Below, piece after piece: positions 1,917-41,301 of a DNA stretch of 49,833 nucleotides. A model generated the notes under the pieces. The model saw only the letters and a list, made by a program, of their open reading frames with translations, ran no database searches and was not told where the DNA came from. The stretch spans positions 1-49,833 of IMG/VR virus record IMGVR_UViG_3300008050_000063, one strand, 5' to 3'. The first letter of the stretch is position 1. Every line of letters starts with the position of its first letter. Source of the stretch: a virus. Both the position numbers and the translations under genes were made by a program.

Positions 1917-1927
1917 AAACCTGGTTT

Positions 1928-1989
1928 AAAAATCCTCTTTTGTTTAGTATATTTTGATTATAAATGTATTTTAACAAAAGAGGATTTTT
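1928..1989 (+). promoter_or_regulatory. RNA on/off switch: 17-bp hairpin enclosing a late promoter and trapping the SD
   Basis: AAAAATCCTCTTTTGTT (1928-1944) and AACAAAAGAGGATTTTT (1973-1989) are perfect complements over 17 bp around a 28-nt loop. The only SD for the gene at 1995 (AGAGGA, 1979-1984) is inside the right arm. A late-type box TATAAATG (1959-1966) is in the loop, so its transcript should start near 1972, at the foot of the right arm, and cannot form the hairpin. Read-through transcripts can. This is the known design of T4 genes e, soc, 49 and I-TevI. The stem plus TTTTT might also terminate upstream transcription. Confidence 0.75.
1959..1966 (+). promoter_or_regulatory. Late-type promoter TATAAATG in hairpin loop
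   Basis: One base from TATAAATA; its position exactly before the right hairpin arm supports a real promoter. Drives the 207-aa gene at 1995. Confidence 0.5.
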
Positions 1990-1994
1990 GCATT

Positions 1995-2618
1995 ATGGCT
2001 AAAAAAATTAGTTTGATAGGTTTTGTAAAAGCAAAACACAAAAGCGTTAAATTTAATGCTAACAAAGAACAACTACGCCCTGAAGATTTCATCAAATTTT
2101 ATTATGGTGTATCTGCTGACAAACCCATTATTGGAAAAGTAACGAAAGTTTTATCAAAAGGTGTTGAAGTTTACACAGACTATGGATGGATGAATGTTCT
2201 TTGGGAAAGAATTGATAGAGTTTTTAAAGTTAAAACTTCCGGTAAATTAAAAGAAACTAAATTGTTAAGTGTTGACGGTTCTTCACCATTACCACTTATT
2301 GATGCTGCAATAGATAGAATTATTGTTCAAGTCAAAAATGAAAATATTCCAATCAAACTCAAAGATAAAAGACTCAATAAAACAACATCTTATAGCAGAC
2401 ATCTAGAGCTAAAAGGTAAATCAGGTGTGATAACTATTGAGGTACAGACAAAAGATGACTCAGAGGCACTTATAAAAGGTCTGAAGCGGAAAGCTGTTAT
2501 TAAACTAAACAACAAAGGTAAAATATCTTCTTCAATTATCAAAAAGGTTGTTGAAGGTGCAAAAAAATTAATAAAACCTGCAAAAAAAGGCTCACCGTTA
2601 AATATAACTAGTCTTTAA
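1995..2618 (+). CDS. Hypothetical basic protein, 207 aa
   Basis: No family recognised. Residues about 28-75 look like a small beta barrel (PIIGKVTKVLSKGVEVYTDYGW), which is a plausible SH3/KOW-like nucleic-acid-binding fold. The rest is Lys-rich, ending in a basic helix (KKVVEGAKKLIKPAKKG). This suggests contact with nucleic acid, by inference only. Expression appears controlled by the hairpin switch just upstream, so the product is probably wanted only late in infection. Confidence 0.6.
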   Translation: MAKKISLIGFVKAKHKSVKFNANKEQLRPEDFIKFYYGVSADKPIIGKVTKVLSKGVEVYTDYGWMNVLWERIDRVFKVKTSGKLKETKLLSVDGSSPLPLIDAAIDRIIVQVKNENIPIKLKDKRLNKTTSYSRHLELKGKSGVITIEVQTKDDSEALIKGLKRKAVIKLNNKGKISSSIIKKVVEGAKKLIKPAKKGSPLNITSL

Positions 2619-5769: not shown

Positions 5770-6285
5770 ATGGATTTTACAATATTATACGACGATAAAG
5801 GACCATCATTTACTTCTGGTTCCAATATACAAGAAATTTTCACAAGATTAGAATCTGCAGGAGAAGATTATGTTGAAGTAGTTCCTGGACATAAAAAAAT
5901 ACCATCGAACGCAGTTAAAAAATTTAATAGTGACCCTATGGCTGTGTTGTTGTCTCAAATACCAGACGACAAACCTGCACAAGCACCTATTACAATTCCA
6001 CATAAATCAGATAATGGTGCGCCTGCTGCAATAAAAGGTACAAACCCTTTCCCTGATAAAAAATGGGTACCGCCAGTCCAAGAAGAAAAAATTAAGACAA
6101 AATATTTTGAAGAAGATGGTATAAGTTTTAAATTGGTGGGAGATGTTCTATATAAGAAGAAATGGGTTGAAAATAAAGACGCAAGACTTATTAATAGAAA
6201 ATCTGGTAAGAGTTATTCTGGTGATAATTATATTGTCCAAACACAAAATTGGAAAGTTGTTTCAGGGGTTCCTGAAACAACTTAG
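5770..6285 (+). CDS. Hypothetical protein, 171 aa
   Basis: I chose ATG 5770 (MDFTILYDD) because it has the SD AAGGAAA and avoids overlap with the upstream gene; the frame is open to an ATG at 5713. The N-terminal half is a possible DNA/protein-binding segment (FTRLESAGEDYVEVVPGHKK). A Pro/Ala-rich linker follows, then a C-terminal basic module with GKSYSGDNYIVQTQNWKVV. No family recognised. Its last codons form a 12-bp hairpin, 6255-6282, that closes the transcription unit. Confidence 0.6.
   Translation: MDFTILYDDKGPSFTSGSNIQEIFTRLESAGEDYVEVVPGHKKIPSNAVKKFNSDPMAVLLSQIPDDKPAQAPITIPHKSDNGAPAAIKGTNPFPDKKWVPPVQEEKIKTKYFEEDGISFKLVGDVLYKKKWVENKDARLINRKSGKSYSGDNYIVQTQNWKVVSGVPETT
6255..6282 (+). 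terminator. 12-bp hairpin at the end of the left gene block
   Basis: AGTTGTTTCAGG (6255-6266) pairs perfectly with CCTGAAACAACT (6271-6282) around a GGTT loop, immediately before the TAG stop. No U-tract follows, so it is either a weak terminator or an mRNA 3'-end stabiliser. It separates the left block from the late fibre block. Confidence 0.5.
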
Positions 6286-6316
6286 TAAAAACTGCATAGT
6301 TAGTCTATTCTATTCC

Positions 6317-6324
6317 TATAAATA
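6317..6324 (+). promoter_or_regulatory. Late promoter TATAAATA for the fibre block
   Basis: Exact late box 20 bases before the ATG at 6344, with SD AAAGGA between. No other late box was seen on the + strand until 15866, so it may drive the whole adhesin block. Confidence 0.75.
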
Positions 6325-6343
6325 TTAAAAAAAGGATATTAAA

Positions 6344-9337
6344 ATGGGAATAGAAATAGACAATATTGTGCATATAACAGATGACCAGATAGCATCTGGT
6401 TATATCCTGCACACAACCCAAACTGAAAAAGACCTTTGGAATAAAAACGCTGTAAGTGGTGATAATTTAAAGATAAATTACAATCCAACTGAAGGTTATA
6501 CTCCTGCTTCAACTACAGTTTCTGGGCATTTATCTGGCATTAAAGACGCTTTAAACGATTTACAAATTGAACCTAACCCACCTGGGGATAGTTTAAGTAT
6601 AGCATATTCTCCAACAGAATATGATGAAACAGATTCAACAGTTTCTGGTAACTTAGATGGTATATCAAAAGAATTAGGCGAAATTAAAACAATTCAATCA
6701 ACTTCTCTAGACGGCCGCTCAGTCATTTATAATCCAGATGGATATACAACTACAGGTCAAACTCTTTCTGCAAATCTAGACGGCATAGGGAATGAATTGA
6801 AGGGCAATGCAACAGATATAGCAACACTTGCTGGATTATCTGCAGATATTGTCTGGGAACACGGTGTTGGAGCAGCATCAGGAACAATACAACCGAAAAT
6901 ATCTACAAATAAACTTTTACTACCATATCTACACGGAAATGTTAATTCAATACCAGTAACAAACAGTTCTGGGGAAATAATAGATTCTTGTTCTACACTT
7001 ATCCCTGGACCTTCAGGAAATGGTAGTGTTATTAATATAAACCATTTTGAAACTAATCCAGCAATAGCAGAATTATTACCTGGTGACATATGGCTTCAAA
7101 GTATCGGAACATCTGGATATGTTTGGAGATACTATAATGGAGTGAGTACACAAAATGTGCCTATCGCTGCTGGAGGTGGTGGAGGTGCTGTTAGTTGGGG
7201 AGATATACTAGGAACATTAGCAAACCAAACTGATCTACAAAACGAATTCGCGAATATAAAACAAGTACCTAGCGGTGGAACAATAAATCAAGTATTGTCT
7301 AAAGCATCAAGTAGTGATTTTGATACTGAATGGAGCGACGTTGCTGCAGCAACTGGATCAAGTTACTGGAGCAGAACATCTGGTGGAATAATTAGTCCTT
7401 CAGTTAGTGGAGATAAATTAGATGTACATGAAATAGAAACCTCTAAAATATTTTCCGAAAATGAACAATCTGCATATATTGAATTTGATGATGAAGTTAT
7501 TAGTATTTATTCTGATTGGAAAAATATGGTTCATATCGATGGAGAAAATGAAGAAGTTGTTTGGAATCCTCATGCGGATTCGGTTGCCCAGGATATTATA
7601 ATTAAAGCTCCTAGTGGTGCTGGTATGAAAGATACATATAGATTTGATTACAGTGCACTTGCTCATATATACAACGATAAGATATTTGCGAATAGTGGAC
7701 TTGTACTAAATACACAAACACTTACTGGGGTTACAATAGGTTCATCCAATAACGATAAAATACCAACACAAGGATATGTTGATGATGCAGTTGGTTTATT
7801 ATCTGGTGCGGAATGGTTTAATGGTGATATGATTGAGCTGGATTTTGTACCAGGTGTTGGATATACTCAAACAAATGAAAAATTATCTGGACACTTAGAC
7901 GGAATTGATAAAAGTTTAAATTCTCTATCAGCTGCTGTTGATAATATAACAGGTGGAACAGGAGGAGGTGGAGCATATATACCACTTACCGGATCAAGTG
8001 ATATTATCGGAAGTCTAATTCCTAAAAATACAGGATTAACTTTAGGAACATCTGGTAATCCATGGCAAGAAGGATATTTCACAAGTGGTAGTTTATTTTT
8101 AGATATTAACAAATTATCTACACAGAACAACAGACTTTATTTTAATGATGAAACTGTTATAGTTAGTGGTGATATTGCAGATTTAGAAAGTGTTTACTCA
8201 AATGTAAACAGTAATAGTGGAAAATGGGACGGAACATATACAACAGTTAGAGCTAATAGTGCTACTTGGGAATTTGGTTCAAAACAATCTTTACATAACG
8301 TATTTGTAGATTACAGTGTTACTCCTGGTGGAGGAGGATCAATTGATGATCCTATTGATACTGTAGCAAATGCATTAGTGTGGATAAATTCTCCAACTGG
8401 TGGTAATGACCCTACAAATTCACAAGCTTGGAAAATTATAACAGCGGCTGGTATAAGTTATGCTAATATTACATTACCTAACAATATAACTCTTGCAGGT
8501 GTTGGTATTACTTCTAAAATTGGTGGTACAATAACGACTGGAAATGATTGCTGTTTAGAATATATTAATTTTACAAAAAATCATCCAGGAACTGGTGGAT
8601 GTGTTAATGTCCAAGGTGCAAGATGTATTATTAGAGAATGTTTTTTCTCTGGTAATTATAACGGCAATTTGCATTATTGTATCTATACTAACAATATTTG
8701 TACTGTTTCTGATACTGCATTCAGACTTAATATTGAAAGTGCAGCTGCTGATGTTTATTGTATAGCACAGGATGGAACACAAACTTCAAGAATGAGGGAT
8801 ATAGGAATACTTGAAAATGATACATATCCAAATAAAATTAAAATAGCTAGGGTAATCTACAATGGTCATATATCAATCAGCGGAATTGGTTCTACAATAG
8901 CCGATAAGTGGTGTAATCTGATTAATGAAGGTACTAATGGTGGGTCAATAACTTTTCAAGATATTGTTAAAATTCCTACAGGTGGAACAGTAGGACAAGT
9001 AGTAACTAAAGCTTCAAGTGGAGAATATGATGTTGGATGGAGTGATCCTGGTGCTCAAACATTTATAGATTGTGCAGATACTCCTTCTGGATATGTTGGG
9101 AAAGGGAATGAACTTGTCAAAGTTAATGCAGCAGAAGACGCAATAGAATTCTCAGGAGTTACAATAGAAGATGCTCCTGCTGGTGGTTCGATGTTAGGTT
9201 TAGATATATACACAACAGAACCTACAGCTCCTACAGGAGAAGATAGTTTATATGCATATCACAAATCAGCAACTGTTGTAGAATTAATCATAACCAACGG
9301 TTCTGATATTTATACTGTGGAGTTAACAAAAAGATAA
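6344..9337 (+). CDS. Long tail-fibre/adhesin protein, 997 aa
   Basis: Contains four copies of a fibre repeat of the form Y.P..GYT......SGHL.GI...L, at about residues 45-77, 84-115, 122-153 and 495-530, separated by Gly/Ser-rich linkers. Residues about 650-860 form a beta-helix-like section (ITLPNNITLAGVGITSK, CCLEYINFTKNHPG), then another linker and a short C-terminal head. Known: such repeats occur in trimeric phage fibres. Inferred role: receptor recognition. First gene after a late promoter; the next ATG follows directly on its stop. Confidence 0.75.
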   Translation: MGIEIDNIVHITDDQIASGYILHTTQTEKDLWNKNAVSGDNLKINYNPTEGYTPASTTVSGHLSGIKDALNDLQIEPNPPGDSLSIAYSPTEYDETDSTVSGNLDGISKELGEIKTIQSTSLDGRSVIYNPDGYTTTGQTLSANLDGIGNELKGNATDIATLAGLSADIVWEHGVGAASGTIQPKISTNKLLLPYLHGNVNSIPVTNSSGEIIDSCSTLIPGPSGNGSVININHFETNPAIAELLPGDIWLQSIGTSGYVWRYYNGVSTQNVPIAAGGGGGAVSWGDILGTLANQTDLQNEFANIKQVPSGGTINQVLSKASSSDFDTEWSDVAAATGSSYWSRTSGGIISPSVSGDKLDVHEIETSKIFSENEQSAYIEFDDEVISIYSDWKNMVHIDGENEEVVWNPHADSVAQDIIIKAPSGAGMKDTYRFDYSALAHIYNDKIFANSGLVLNTQTLTGVTIGSSNNDKIPTQGYVDDAVGLLSGAEWFNGDMIELDFVPGVGYTQTNEKLSGHLDGIDKSLNSLSAAVDNITGGTGGGGAYIPLTGSSDIIGSLIPKNTGLTLGTSGNPWQEGYFTSGSLFLDINKLSTQNNRLYFNDETVIVSGDIADLESVYSNVNSNSGKWDGTYTTVRANSATWEFGSKQSLHNVFVDYSVTPGGGGSIDDPIDTVANALVWINSPTGGNDPTNSQAWKIITAAGISYANITLPNNITLAGVGITSKIGGTITTGNDCCLEYINFTKNHPGTGGCVNVQGARCIIRECFFSGNYNGNLHYCIYTNNICTVSDTAFRLNIESAAADVYCIAQDGTQTSRMRDIGILENDTYPNKIKIARVIYNGHISISGIGSTIADKWCNLINEGTNGGSITFQDIVKIPTGGTVGQVVTKASSGEYDVGWSDPGAQTFIDCADTPSGYVGKGNELVKVNAAEDAIEFSGVTIEDAPAGGSMLGLDIYTTEPTAPTGEDSLYAYHKSATVVELIITNGSDIYTVELTKR

Positions 9338-29677: not shown

Positions 29678-30403
29678 ATGAACTATCAAAAAAATTATAA
29701 CTTACTCATCGAAAAATATAAAAATCTAAATATTCAAAAAAGTAAAGAAATTAATCTTGAAAAACATCACATACTCCCAAAATCCATGGGTGGTACAAAC
29801 AATAAAGAAAATTTAGTTAATTTAACGGTAAAGGCACATTTTGTCGCTCACCATTTACTTTGGAAAATACATAGAAATAAAGAAATGGCATTTGCTTTTT
29901 GGCGAATGGTTAATAATAAAAATATTAATTTATCGATGTATGTAGAGGCAAAAAATAATTTTATAAAATTTAATAAAGGAGAAACAGCACCTAATTATGG
30001 TAAAAAACACACAGAAAAAACTAAGAACCAGATTAGTGTAACAATGAAAAAGAAAAATTTAACAGGAAAAAATAATTATTTTTATGGTAAAAAACACACA
30101 GAAAAAACTAAGAAAATGTATTCATTACAAAGAAAAGGAAAAACAAGACCCCAAAGTTTTATTGATAAAATGAAAACTAAAATGAAGGGGGAAAATAATC
30201 CAATGTTTGGTAAAAAAATATCAGAAGAACATAAAGAAAAAATTAGAGAAGCAAATCGTAAAAGAAAAGGTTTGCCTTCTCCTAACAAAGGCAAACCTCA
30301 AGATAAATCACAATGTCCGTTTTGTATGAAAATAGGCGGTAAGAGTAATATGAAACGTTATCATTTTAATAACTGCAGATCTAACCCACGTAAAAACCAA
30401 TAG
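29678..30403 (+). CDS. HNH homing endonuclease with NUMOD3-type repeats and zinc finger, 241 aa
   Basis: HNH core KHHILPKSMGGTNNKENLVN plus KAHFVAHHL (H30, H31, N45, H58, H59). Three DNA-binding repeats follow, of NUMOD3 type: NYGKKHTEKTKNQIS, FYGKKHTEKTKKMYS and MFGKKISEEHKEKIREA. A C-terminal CPFCMKIGG...RYHFNNC zinc finger ends the protein. Known: free-standing HNH enzymes spread by cutting alleles that lack them. Its 3' end overlaps the end of the neck-like gene by 23 bases, and its direction opposes all flanking genes. Paralogue of the protein at 38750. Confidence 0.9.
   Translation: MNYQKNYNLLIEKYKNLNIQKSKEINLEKHHILPKSMGGTNNKENLVNLTVKAHFVAHHLLWKIHRNKEMAFAFWRMVNNKNINLSMYVEAKNNFIKFNKGETAPNYGKKHTEKTKNQISVTMKKKNLTGKNNYFYGKKHTEKTKKMYSLQRKGKTRPQSFIDKMKTKMKGENNPMFGKKISEEHKEKIREANRKRKGLPSPNKGKPQDKSQCPFCMKIGGKSNMKRYHFNNCRSNPRKNQ
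29996..30112 (+). repeat. 30-bp exact repeat inside the HNH gene
   Basis: TATGGTAAAAAACACACAGA and the following ten bases occur at 29996-30025 and 30083-30112, 87 bp (29 codons) apart. They encode NUMOD3 units 1 and 2. Confidence 0.8.
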
Positions 30404-38718: not shown

Positions 38719-38737
38719 GTTTATCCTGTTTTTATTT

Positions 38738-38755
38738 ATTTATATTTATTTATAA
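38738..38755 (-). promoter_or_regulatory. Tandem late promoters for the protease gene
   Basis: Two TATTTATA boxes (+ strand) at 38738-38745 and 38748-38755, ten bases apart, about one helical turn, so they lie on the same DNA face. Confidence 0.65.
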
Positions 38756-39499
38756 GTTTATAAGTGTCTTACAATTTTTAAAATGCCATCTATGCATATT
38801 ACTTATCCCACCTATTTTATCACAATGTGGGCATTTAACTATATTCTGTTTTTTTCCTGATTTAGATTGACTTATTTTTGCTTTTGTTTTTTCAGAAACA
38901 AATTTATTTTTAGAAGATTGACTTATTTTTGCTTTTGTTTTTTCAGAATGTTTTCGATTTTTGAATTTTGTGCTCATTTCTTTACTTCTTTCTTTTAAAA
39001 TTTGTGTGTCAATATTTGGATTTAATCTACATTTAGCACCATGCCATCGTGCATACATGTGAGGATGTATTTTTTTATCACAGAAAATACATTTTTTGTG
39101 TTTTCTATTTTTGGCAGCTATTTTCATGTTATCAACACATTTTTTAGTTTTTCTGATTCCTTTAAATTGATTTGATAATCTTATACTAAATTCTTTTTTA
39201 ATTTTTTCATACATAGAAGAAGTTACTTTGTACTTTCTTTTATTGTTATTACTTGTTTTAGTTACGAACATCCAAAACGAATATATTATTTTATTATTGT
39301 TTGGATAAATTTTACAAAGTAAATGATGAGCAACAAAATGAGCTTTTGCTGTTAAATTAACTAAATTTTCTTTATTGTTTGTGCCTCCTATAGATTTAGG
39401 TAAGATGTGATGTGATTCAAGATATATATCTTGGCCTTTTTTAAAATTTAAAATTTTGTGTTTTTTAATAATCAAATCGTAGAGTTTCTGATAGTTCAT
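38750..39499 (-). CDS. HNH homing endonuclease paralogue, 249 aa
   Basis: HNH core SHHILPKSIGGTNNKENLVN plus KAHFVAHHL, almost the same as the enzyme at 29678. Two zinc-finger-like clusters (CIFCDKKIHPHMYARWHGAKC and CPHCDKIGGISNMHRWHF...C) flank NUMOD3-like units HSEKTKAKISQSSK and VSEKTKAKISQSKSG. It sits between portal and protease, where T4 has genes 67/68. Its mRNA start is under a promoter-in-hairpin switch (39509-39571). The pair shows one endonuclease family has entered the head region twice. Confidence 0.9.
   Translation of the reverse strand: MNYQKLYDLIIKKHKILNFKKGQDIYLESHHILPKSIGGTNNKENLVNLTAKAHFVAHHLLCKIYPNNNKIIYSFWMFVTKTSNNNKRKYKVTSSMYEKIKKEFSIRLSNQFKGIRKTKKCVDNMKIAAKNRKHKKCIFCDKKIHPHMYARWHGAKCRLNPNIDTQILKERSKEMSTKFKNRKHSEKTKAKISQSSKNKFVSEKTKAKISQSKSGKKQNIVKCPHCDKIGGISNMHRWHFKNCKTLINL
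38864..38947 (-). repeat. 33-bp direct repeat in the HNH paralogue
   Basis: AGATTGACTTATTTTTGCTT and the bases following occur at 38864-38896 and 38915-38947, 51 bp (17 codons) apart. They encode the tandem SEKTKAKISQS units. Confidence 0.8.
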
Positions 39500-39508
39500 A
39501 TATTCTTT

Positions 39509-39571
39509 CCTTTAATGTGTGGTTGAATATATTTATAAGAAAAAGAGAACAACCCTGCACCACACTAAAGG
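39509..39571 (-). promoter_or_regulatory. RNA switch: late promoter inside hairpin masking the HNH SD
   Basis: On the - strand CCTTTAGTGTGGT (39571-39559) pairs with ACCACACATTAAAGG (39523-39509): 7 + 6 bp with a 2-nt bulge. The SD (AAAGGAAA) falls in the second arm and TATAAATA (39537-39530) in the loop, with the predicted start at about 39523, the foot of the second arm. Upstream transcripts fold and hide the SD; loop-promoter transcripts cannot. Same logic as 1928-1989 and as T4 I-TevI. Confidence 0.7.
39530..39537 (-). promoter_or_regulatory. Late promoter for the HNH paralogue
   Basis: Exact late box in the hairpin loop described for 39509-39571; 31 bases before ATG 39499. Confidence 0.7.
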
Positions 39572-39592
39572 AAAAATCCACGGGTTGTTCTC
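39540..39592 (-). terminator. Terminator after the portal gene
   Basis: - strand: GAGAACAACCC (39592-39582) pairs perfectly with GGGTTGTTCTC (39555-39545), followed by five U residues. The 26-nt loop contains the first arm of the HNH switch. The two hairpins interleave, so in a read-through RNA both together would make a pseudoknot or compete. Confidence 0.75.
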
Positions 39593-39601
39593 AAAATTAT
39601 C

Positions 39602-41263
39602 TTACCAGTCTTCTTCCTCTTCTTTATGAAGTGGATTTGGGTCACCCTGTTCTTCTGCTAAATTTGCGTGGAAATTAATAATTCCTTGCTGTACAGCATC
39701 TTCTTCTAAACGTTTCCAATTTTCTGCAATATCTTCTTTGCTCCAACCTAAATATCTTTCCATACAGAATGTGTTAGAAAATTCTTCCCTATCTGCCATA
39801 GATGTATATTGTTCGATGATTATCGTCATTCTTTGTTGTTCTTCATATCTGTCAAATGACGATGGTGGAGTAAATCTGATTTTTAAATCTTTGTCTTTTA
39901 TTTTCTGTTTATCCCAGATTCCTTTAAGTTTAAGATGTGTTTTGAATCCATCCTTCAAACCTAACGCAAATCTGTTATGAAGTCTCATTATAAATTTTGC
40001 AAATCTGTATTCTTCATAATTGATAGATGTAGATCGTTCTAAATTATCTGTAGGTTCTGCATATCTGTTATATGGAACTTTCAATGAAATATATAATTTT
40101 CTTAAGAAATAGTTTAAATCTTCCAATTCACCTAAATTCTGTCCTCCACCAAGTGTAGTTACCTCTGTACCGCTACCACCTTGTGACTTAACAAACCAAA
40201 AACTTTCAAGCATTGAATGTGGATCATAATCATTAGCAATTGTCGCAGTGTTAGGATTATATACCTTTTTAGTGTTATACTTCTGCATCATTTTCATAAC
40301 TTCTTCTTCAGCTTTAGTTCTTGTTGCATTACCTACATCAACATTGAAAACTAATCTTTCTGGCGCTCTAACTAACCTGTATATTATAATAGAATCTTCA
40401 ATCATTGCAAGTTGGTTGTATGCTCTCCGTGCTCTTTCAAGAACAGGAAATACAAATGAACCAATTGAATTATAAAGTCCTGTATTAATATAAGTAATCT
40501 GTTCAGATGGTAAGAACACCGCTGATTCATCGTTTAAAGCATCATAAGTATTAAGTGTCTGTATATTGACATTACCTACACTGTATTTGCTAGACTTTTG
40601 TTTCTGTTCACTCTCATGAGCATTGATATTAACATCACCGTCATTTACAAATACAGTAAGACCAACACGTTGTTGTGTTGTCATATCGTATGTAAATTCA
40701 TAACTTTCTGATGGTAGAAATTTTATATCTAAAACTCCAGCAGTTGGTTCAGTTTTTGAAACAATATTTTCCCAAGCAAGTTCACCGTCGATACAAAACA
40801 ATCTCATATATTCAAACATTCGATTCTCAAAATCAAACAAGTTTATATATTCACTCCAGGCATTGTTAATTTCTTTTTGATCTAAGTCTCCGAATTTAGA
40901 TGGAAGTTTTAAGTTCAATAAATTATCATTTTCATCTGATGTAATTGCGGAATCACATATTTCATCAATTGCATCCCCAACTTCAGGAAATTCTGCCATT
41001 CTTCTATATGATGAAAGTCTTACTACTTTATTTGTTGAAATGGAACCATACATTGTGTCTCCCATTCCTTGACCCATTTGCCCACCTGCTGTACCAAATT
41101 CTTGGTTGTCAATATTTTTAAAGTATTTAGCAACAGCTGACCAATCATTGACATTAACTTCTTGTGCAAGTTTGTCAAAAATTTCATATTTATAATTTGT
41201 TTTTTCAGCATCCTTAGATGAAAATCTAAACACACCGTCCATAATGGTATTATACCAGCTCAT
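39602..41263 (-). CDS. 20: Portal vertex protein (gp20-like)
   Basis: 553 aa (T4: 524). Typical regions: AEFPEVGDAIDEICDSAIT, IKFLPSESYEFTYD, LERARRAYNQLAMIEDSIII, VRAPERLVFNVDVGN, GGGQNLGELEDLNYFLRKLY and DNLERSTSINYEEYRFAKF, all as in gp20 proteins. Known: dodecameric ring that starts prohead assembly, conducts DNA and binds terminase and neck. A Lys/Ser-rich insertion near 215-225 probably lies on a surface loop. Late box 41294-41301 is upstream. Confidence 0.95.
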   Translation of the reverse strand: MSWYNTIMDGVFRFSSKDAEKTNYKYEIFDKLAQEVNVNDWSAVAKYFKNIDNQEFGTAGGQMGQGMGDTMYGSISTNKVVRLSSYRRMAEFPEVGDAIDEICDSAITSDENDNLLNLKLPSKFGDLDQKEINNAWSEYINLFDFENRMFEYMRLFCIDGELAWENIVSKTEPTAGVLDIKFLPSESYEFTYDMTTQQRVGLTVFVNDGDVNINAHESEQKQKSSKYSVGNVNIQTLNTYDALNDESAVFLPSEQITYINTGLYNSIGSFVFPVLERARRAYNQLAMIEDSIIIYRLVRAPERLVFNVDVGNATRTKAEEEVMKMMQKYNTKKVYNPNTATIANDYDPHSMLESFWFVKSQGGSGTEVTTLGGGQNLGELEDLNYFLRKLYISLKVPYNRYAEPTDNLERSTSINYEEYRFAKFIMRLHNRFALGLKDGFKTHLKLKGIWDKQKIKDKDLKIRFTPPSSFDRYEEQQRMTIIIEQYTSMADREEFSNTFCMERYLGWSKEDIAENWKRLEEDAVQQGIINFHANLAEEQGDPNPLHKEEEEDW

Positions 41264-41293: not shown

Positions 41294-41301
41294 TATTTAT
41301 A
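41294..41301 (-). promoter_or_regulatory. Late promoter for the portal gene
   Basis: TATTTATA (+ strand), 31 bases before ATG 41263; divergent with the box at 41321-41328. Confidence 0.75.

Follow-up and report, generated by a model that had tools for sequence, protein, structure and literature searches.

A late promoter enclosed in a hairpin that covers the ribosome-binding site (RBS) is a published design, described for the T4 genes e, soc, 49, segB and I-TevI, and for mobE of Aeh1 (PMC2988022; PMC3014915). In the T4 examples the late RNA lacks the 5' arm of the hairpin and the RBS lies in the 3' arm, and the available text of one account stresses that the switch genes lie on long early and middle transcripts (PMC2988022). 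Aeh1 mobE, a free-standing HNH homing endonuclease gene inside a ribonucleotide reductase gene, also has an RBS hairpin on long transcripts and is under multilayer control; an interleaved terminator is not described for it in the text of these accounts that was available to us (PMC2988022; PMC3014915). In T4 mobE, a terminator within the 5' coding region limits the transcripts of the MobE endonuclease, with about 30% termination, and the same available text describes no interleaved RBS hairpin there (PMC2988022).

We analysed a virus record of 49,833 bases from a T4-like myovirus (the whole stretch is called the window below), and found a related arrangement before a gene for a predicted MobE-like HNH homing endonuclease. 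As in the T4 switches, the RBS lies in the 3' arm and the predicted late RNA lacks the 5' arm; whereas the T4 switches lie on early and middle transcripts, the upstream gene here is a late gene. The stem is stronger than T4 switch stems by the scoring used here, and its 5' arm lies within the loop of a terminator-like hairpin. We found no terminator interleaved with a homing-endonuclease RBS hairpin in the open-access literature, as far as the available text of the reports goes (PMC2988022; PMC3014915; PMC2988020; PMC1524935). The type of switch and the type of gene are known, and the interleaving with a terminator looks new.

An HNH gene between the portal and prohead protease genes

All features of this locus lie on the minus strand, in the order portal gene 20, HNH gene, prohead protease gene 21, a scaffold-like gene (with a T4_CASP match slightly under the Pfam cut-off) and a gene in the major-capsid position. 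The HNH gene fills the slot between genes 20 and 21 that is held by genes 67 and 68 in T4. Gene 20 (39602..41263, stop codon at 39604-39602) encodes a T4-like gp20 of 553 aa (Pfam Portal_T4, PF07230, E 2e-103) and forms the upstream transcription unit. An exact match to TATAAATA at 41294..41301, 30 nt before its ATG, is its putative late promoter; the neighbour further upstream (41361) is transcribed divergently.

The HNH gene (38750..39499) encodes a protein of 249 aa that begins with MNYQKLYD at an ATG at 39499. It matched phrog_655 (E 9e-45) and no Pfam family at a threshold of 0.001, and the protein aligned with phage T6 MobE and its relatives. The HNH residues and the MNY start were invariant in the family alignment (A2), and since this start is shared across the family the assigned start codon is credible. 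Judged by the profile match and the HNH residues, the protein is classed as a MobE-like HNH homing endonuclease. Gene 21 has two putative late promoters at 38737..38754 (minus strand), the first of which overlaps the HNH stop codon; the pair recalls cases in T4 where an endonuclease gene carries the promoter for the following gene.

Interleaving of a terminator-like hairpin, a late promoter and an RBS hairpin

Arm A of the terminator-like hairpin (GAGAACAACCC, 39582..39592) starts 9 nt past the stop codon of gene 20. Its perfect 11-bp complement, A', lies at 39545..39555 and is followed by a U-rich tail (TTTTTCTT, 39537..39544). The A-A' hairpin had an energy of -20.8 kcal/mol, and none of 5,000 shuffles was equally stable. 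With its stable 11-bp stem and U-rich tract it is a predicted intrinsic terminator, with a loop of 26 nt that exceeds the short loop expected of such terminators; T4 terminators are described with loops of 4 nt (PMC2988022). It is one of 71 terminator-like hairpins counted across 490,897 bases, made up of the window, the HNH loci and some 149 kb from T4 and its neighbours; L001-L004, L012 and L093, which duplicate the window or its twin, were excluded from the count. Loops were 11 nt or shorter in 50 of the 71, the commonest being 4 nt, and 21 had loops of at least 12 nt; of these, only A/A' was followed by a promoter and a leader able to pair. Loop length is a typical feature of intrinsic terminators and not a strictly defining one.

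The last T of the tail is also the first T of a predicted T4-type late promoter (TATAAATA, 39530..39537). Because T4 late promoters occupy positions -13 to -6 (PMC1524935), the start of transcription is predicted at 39524. Aeh1 late promoters, as given in the available text, read CTAAATA and differ from TATAAATA (PMC1524935).

Arm B of the putative switch (TTTTTCCTTTAGTGTGGT, 39559..39576) lies inside the 26-nt terminator loop, and arm B' (ACCACAC-AT-TAAAGGAAAGA, 39504..39523) holds the Shine-Dalgarno sequence (SD) of the HNH gene (AAAGGAAAG, 39513-39505). The two arms form 13 bp, interrupted by a 2-nt bulge; the helix can be lengthened to 18 pairs, one of them G-U, with a duplex energy of -20.6 kcal/mol. 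The 3' arm of this stable hairpin thus contains the SD. Read 5' to 3', the order of the arms is A-B-A'-B'. A weak alternative arm C (ATATATTC, 39525..39532) can pair with 39498-39505 across the start codon (-4.6 kcal/mol).

An earlier note on this DNA had placed the SD in the second arm of a 13-bp hairpin with a 2-nt bulge, the first arm inside the loop of the portal terminator, and a specified short sequence in the loop of the SD hairpin. The coordinates bear out the hairpin, every element of the interleaved order was located in the sequence, and the loop holds the consensus T4 late promoter at 39537-39530. The A-B-A'-B' arrangement before the HNH gene is a real and well-formed feature. The promoter lies between the arms and B ends at 39559, so the predicted late RNA contains all of B' and none of B. 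When folded in silico, this RNA (from 39524) gave only a weak structure (-3.4 kcal/mol), in which the SD was unpaired with a probability of 0.55.

Strength of the RBS hairpin against chance and among the genes of the window

When the terminator loop and the leader were each shuffled separately, the observed -22.2 kcal/mol was reached in 46 of 50,000 trials. The same value was reached by 6 of 14,214 equally spaced placements in the window, among which the B-B' site itself may be counted. When the 110 nt preceding the HNH gene were shuffled, a stem as strong arose in 10 of 20,000 cases; multiplied by the 48 genes tested, this gives about 0.024. B and B' match better than expected by chance.

Across these 48 genes, the SD-covering stems of the HNH gene (-22.2) and of gene 1995-2618 on the plus strand (-22.0) were by far the strongest, the next reaching -14.0. 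The same two genes stood out among the 18 with a late-promoter-like site (z of -3.8 for HNH and -5.7 for gene 1995; next -1.2); they are the 2 of 18 with a hairpin that holds the SD, and both follow a co-directional gene. Upstream of gene 1995 lies an 18-bp hairpin (1928..1989, plus strand) whose arms enclose TATAAATG and whose 3' arm contains the SD, and the fold of the whole region had a z of -5.8. The earlier note had spoken of the same switch elsewhere in this DNA; such a switch exists, and this hairpin is probably the one meant. The product of gene 1995 matched no Pfam or PHROG family, and a homology search returned no relatives of the gene. The 3' arm of its hairpin (1918-1998, plus strand) ends in ATTTTTG, so that transcripts arriving from upstream might also be terminated by this hairpin, directly in front of the start codon.

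A paralogue of the HNH gene at 29678-30403 (plus strand), 44% identical and with a NUMOD3 motif, has a late promoter and lies behind a divergent gene, a setting in which read-through would not be expected, and it showed no such hairpin (z -0.3). The presence of the hairpin at the HNH gene and its absence at this paralogue fit an insulation from read-through, a comparison that is suggestive and concerns few genes. The other late-promoter genes of the window that lie behind co-directional neighbours also lacked such a hairpin. Gene 6344-9337 is preceded by a perfect hairpin with a stem of 11 bp or more and then by a late promoter (6247-6360, plus strand). This promoter lies between two further complementary arms of 11 nt, the second of which covers the region of the start codon, and the arrangement scored moderately (z -1.2).

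We calibrated the scoring on 23 T4 genes, 17 of which have a late-promoter-like site. The lowest z values were those of gene 51 (-3.3), I-TevIII (-2.8), e (-2.5) and I-TevII (-1.8); soc, 49 and I-TevI did not stand out (-0.3 to -0.4), and segB had a z of +1.7. Both hairpins of the window thus score stronger than the proven T4 switches. Because soc, 49, I-TevI and segB, which are proven or implicated switches, score unremarkably, the z-score misses some true switches, does not cleanly split functional from non-functional hairpins, and is limited as proof of function.

Queries of the viral collection with the portal gene, the HNH gene and the gene in the capsid position each returned the same contig as the only close relative. 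This twin is 99.97% identical over 9,659 bases, and its three differences all fall in gene 20. A pattern search for B/B' found only this contig, and phage records contained only distant portal homologues (<60% identity). With the sole close relative identical across the region, and no diverged relative found, these searches gave no covariation for or against A/A' or B/B'.

Interplay of the two helices in the read-through RNA

We folded a 211-nt read-through RNA with a nested (pseudoknot-free) model. The central A-A' pair formed with a probability of 0.98, and the SD was 0.68 unpaired and so more open than in the late RNA. When A was removed, the unpaired fraction of the SD fell to 0.02. In a 128-nt stretch the B-B' fold was optimal (-27.6, compared with -24.6 when B was blocked), and in a 131-nt stretch the A-A' fold was optimal. 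Since the optimum differs between these stretches, the two folds are close in energy and depend on the flanks. Because nested folding favours A-A', sequestration of the SD in the full read-through RNA would need either a pseudoknot or a failure of A-A'.

We estimated by crude A-form geometry whether both helices could coexist, allowing about 6 Angstrom per bridging nucleotide. By this estimate, 13-16 bp of B-B' are compatible with A-A' (33.6-38.3 Angstrom spanned by 10 to 7 nt), whereas the full 18 bp are not (43.1 Angstrom for 5 nt). A pseudoknot of A-A' with 13-16 bp of B-B' is sterically possible in this model; winding more than one turn within a closed loop may be slow.

B' starts 13 nt past the U-rich tail and is synthesised only once the termination decision has been made, which leaves B-B' no influence on termination. 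Control runs one way, in that A-A' can influence B-B' and not the reverse. A role of B-B' as an antiterminator is ruled out by this order of synthesis. Trp-type attenuators likewise rely on alternative RNA hairpins in a leader, which are mutually exclusive there; unlike those, A-A' and B-B' share no bases, and B-B' forms after the termination decision.

The proposal that terminator and switch layer transcriptional and translational control on one short region held in part. The interleaved elements match the published homing-endonuclease design as described in the available text (PMC2988022; PMC3014915). Layering can act in one direction only, the folding gives no simple closed switch (A-A' 0.98, SD 0.68 unpaired), and a classical early/late timing has no evident early transcript here, gene 20 being late and the next gene divergent.

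Proposed insulation of the endonuclease from portal read-through and alternative explanations

The reading that we lean towards is that a T4-type RBS hairpin with a late promoter in its loop, interleaved with the portal terminator, shields the MobE-like HNH endonuclease from late portal read-through. The portal RNA would form A-A' and mostly terminate in the U-rich tail. An RNA that reads through would contain B, and a failure of A-A' or a pseudoknot would let B pair with B'; this pairing would bury the SD, and the endonuclease would not be made. In this preferred reading the interleaving serves as a fail-safe, in that a failed terminator helix would leave B available to cover the RBS. The RNA from the gene's own late promoter (predicted +1 at 39524) would lack A, B and A', leaving the SD largely single-stranded and open to translation.

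Several results argue for this insulation. The positions of the arms, the promoter and the SD match those of published switches, as far as the available text describes them (PMC2988022; PMC3014915). The strength of B-B' (-20.6 kcal/mol) is rarely matched in either set of shuffles (46/50,000 and 10/20,000), and the feature is selective, since only the HNH gene and gene 1995 stand out among the 18 and both lie behind co-directional genes. The SD is 0.02 unpaired without the pairing of A, as against 0.55 in the late RNA. The insulation reading is weakened by the preference of nested folding for A-A', which leaves the SD mostly unpaired, by the lack of covariation, by the occurrence of such a hairpin in only 1 of 86 HNH loci and its absence at other co-directional late-promoter genes, and by the poor values that the scoring gave to soc, 49, I-TevI and segB.

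A further step, which we consider possible though on balance doubtful, is an interlocked fail-safe, in which the very failure of A-A' that permits read-through, for example through a ribosome ending gene 20, would free B to shut the SD. Escape from transcriptional control would then automatically trigger translational control. Homing endonucleases survive by sparing the genes that they adjoin, and insulation at this site, between two essential head genes, would show a selfish gene silenced on its neighbour's RNA. It would also extend the known early/late switch to the separation of two late transcripts.

The alternative that survives best, although we think it rather unlikely, is that only the terminator and the promoter matter, A-A' ending the portal RNA, the HNH gene being expressed from its own late promoter, and B-B' being an accident or a functionless relic. 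Terminator and promoter alone suffice for expression, A-A' wins in nested folding with the SD mostly free, no covariation is available for B-B', and AT-rich sequence yields many short stems. Yet a B-B' match of this strength is rare in shuffled sequence and coincides with the positions of the SD, the promoter and the loop, and the window contains a second strong case before gene 1995.

It is less likely still that the two genes are coupled through translation, a ribosome finishing gene 20 covering the foot of A, blocking the terminator hairpin and steering the RNA into B-B'. If true, portal translation would be coupled to repression of the endonuclease. Folding is consistent with such a step, as an RNA with its 5' end at 39588, in which the first bases of A are missing as if covered, had the SD 0.02 unpaired, compared with 0.47 for a 5' end at 39594. 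Against it, terminators right behind stop codons are common, and the footprint of the ribosome is an assumed value.

A classical early/late timer, as in T4 e and I-TevI, would have early or middle RNAs cross gene 20 into the HNH gene, which would stay silent until late promoters fire. The anatomy is the same as in the proven cases, as described in the available text (PMC2988022; PMC3014915). We regard a timer as very improbable, and insulation from portal read-through as the likelier of the two, because gene 20 is itself preceded by a late promoter and its upstream neighbour is transcribed divergently. Sigma-70-like sites were also not enriched between 32000 and 46000 (60 found, against a shuffled mean of 77.1).

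A DNA-level operator, in which the inverted repeat around the promoter would serve autorepression by analogy with I-TevI, which is described as binding an operator that overlaps its late promoter (PMC2988022), is highly improbable given that the repeat holds the SD and is placed where an RNA switch needs it.

Leaders of related HNH loci

We surveyed related HNH loci under 87 identifiers, of which 86 were evaluated (the omitted one was apparently L022, whose match lay too near a contig end); start codons were assigned automatically, and some loci are nearly identical. A late-promoter-like site together with a strong stem was found in 1 of 86 (L051), which has no clear SD. The switch as a trait of the whole HNH family is not supported by this survey.

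Other arrangements recurred. In 11 of the 86 MobE-like loci (L016, L027, L028, L031, L046, L058, L060, L064, L066, L086 and L087), NATAAATA occupies precisely positions -13 to -6 relative to the ATG, and in L079 it lies at -12. In most of them the site comes soon after a terminator-like hairpin, with no evident SD. If NATAAATA serves as a late promoter, the A of the ATG would be the first transcribed base and the mRNA would be leaderless. Some of the loci contain sites resembling TTGAC...TATTAT, and an SD-less leader from a sigma-70-type promoter would be an alternative.

A conserved RNA-like block lies directly before the MobE-like HNH genes of L030 (795-905) and L068 (150-262), and also in L098 and L099. 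By eye, the loop of one hairpin pairs with the loop of a second (kissing loops), and both the loop-loop helix and the second stem show compensatory changes between L030 and L068. The L030 and L068 loci matched no Rfam family at the gathering score, and a pattern scan for the block found only these two contigs. Another block of about 60 nt (GTG-AGTT-CGCGA ... CTCTA ... AAGG ... CAGCA-ATG), about 60 nt before the HNH ATG, is similar across L021, L037, L048, L052, L053, L056, L061, L076, L080, L089 and L091. The HNH gene of L056 is closely followed by a freshwater-2 RNA (RF02980), at 2195-2268.
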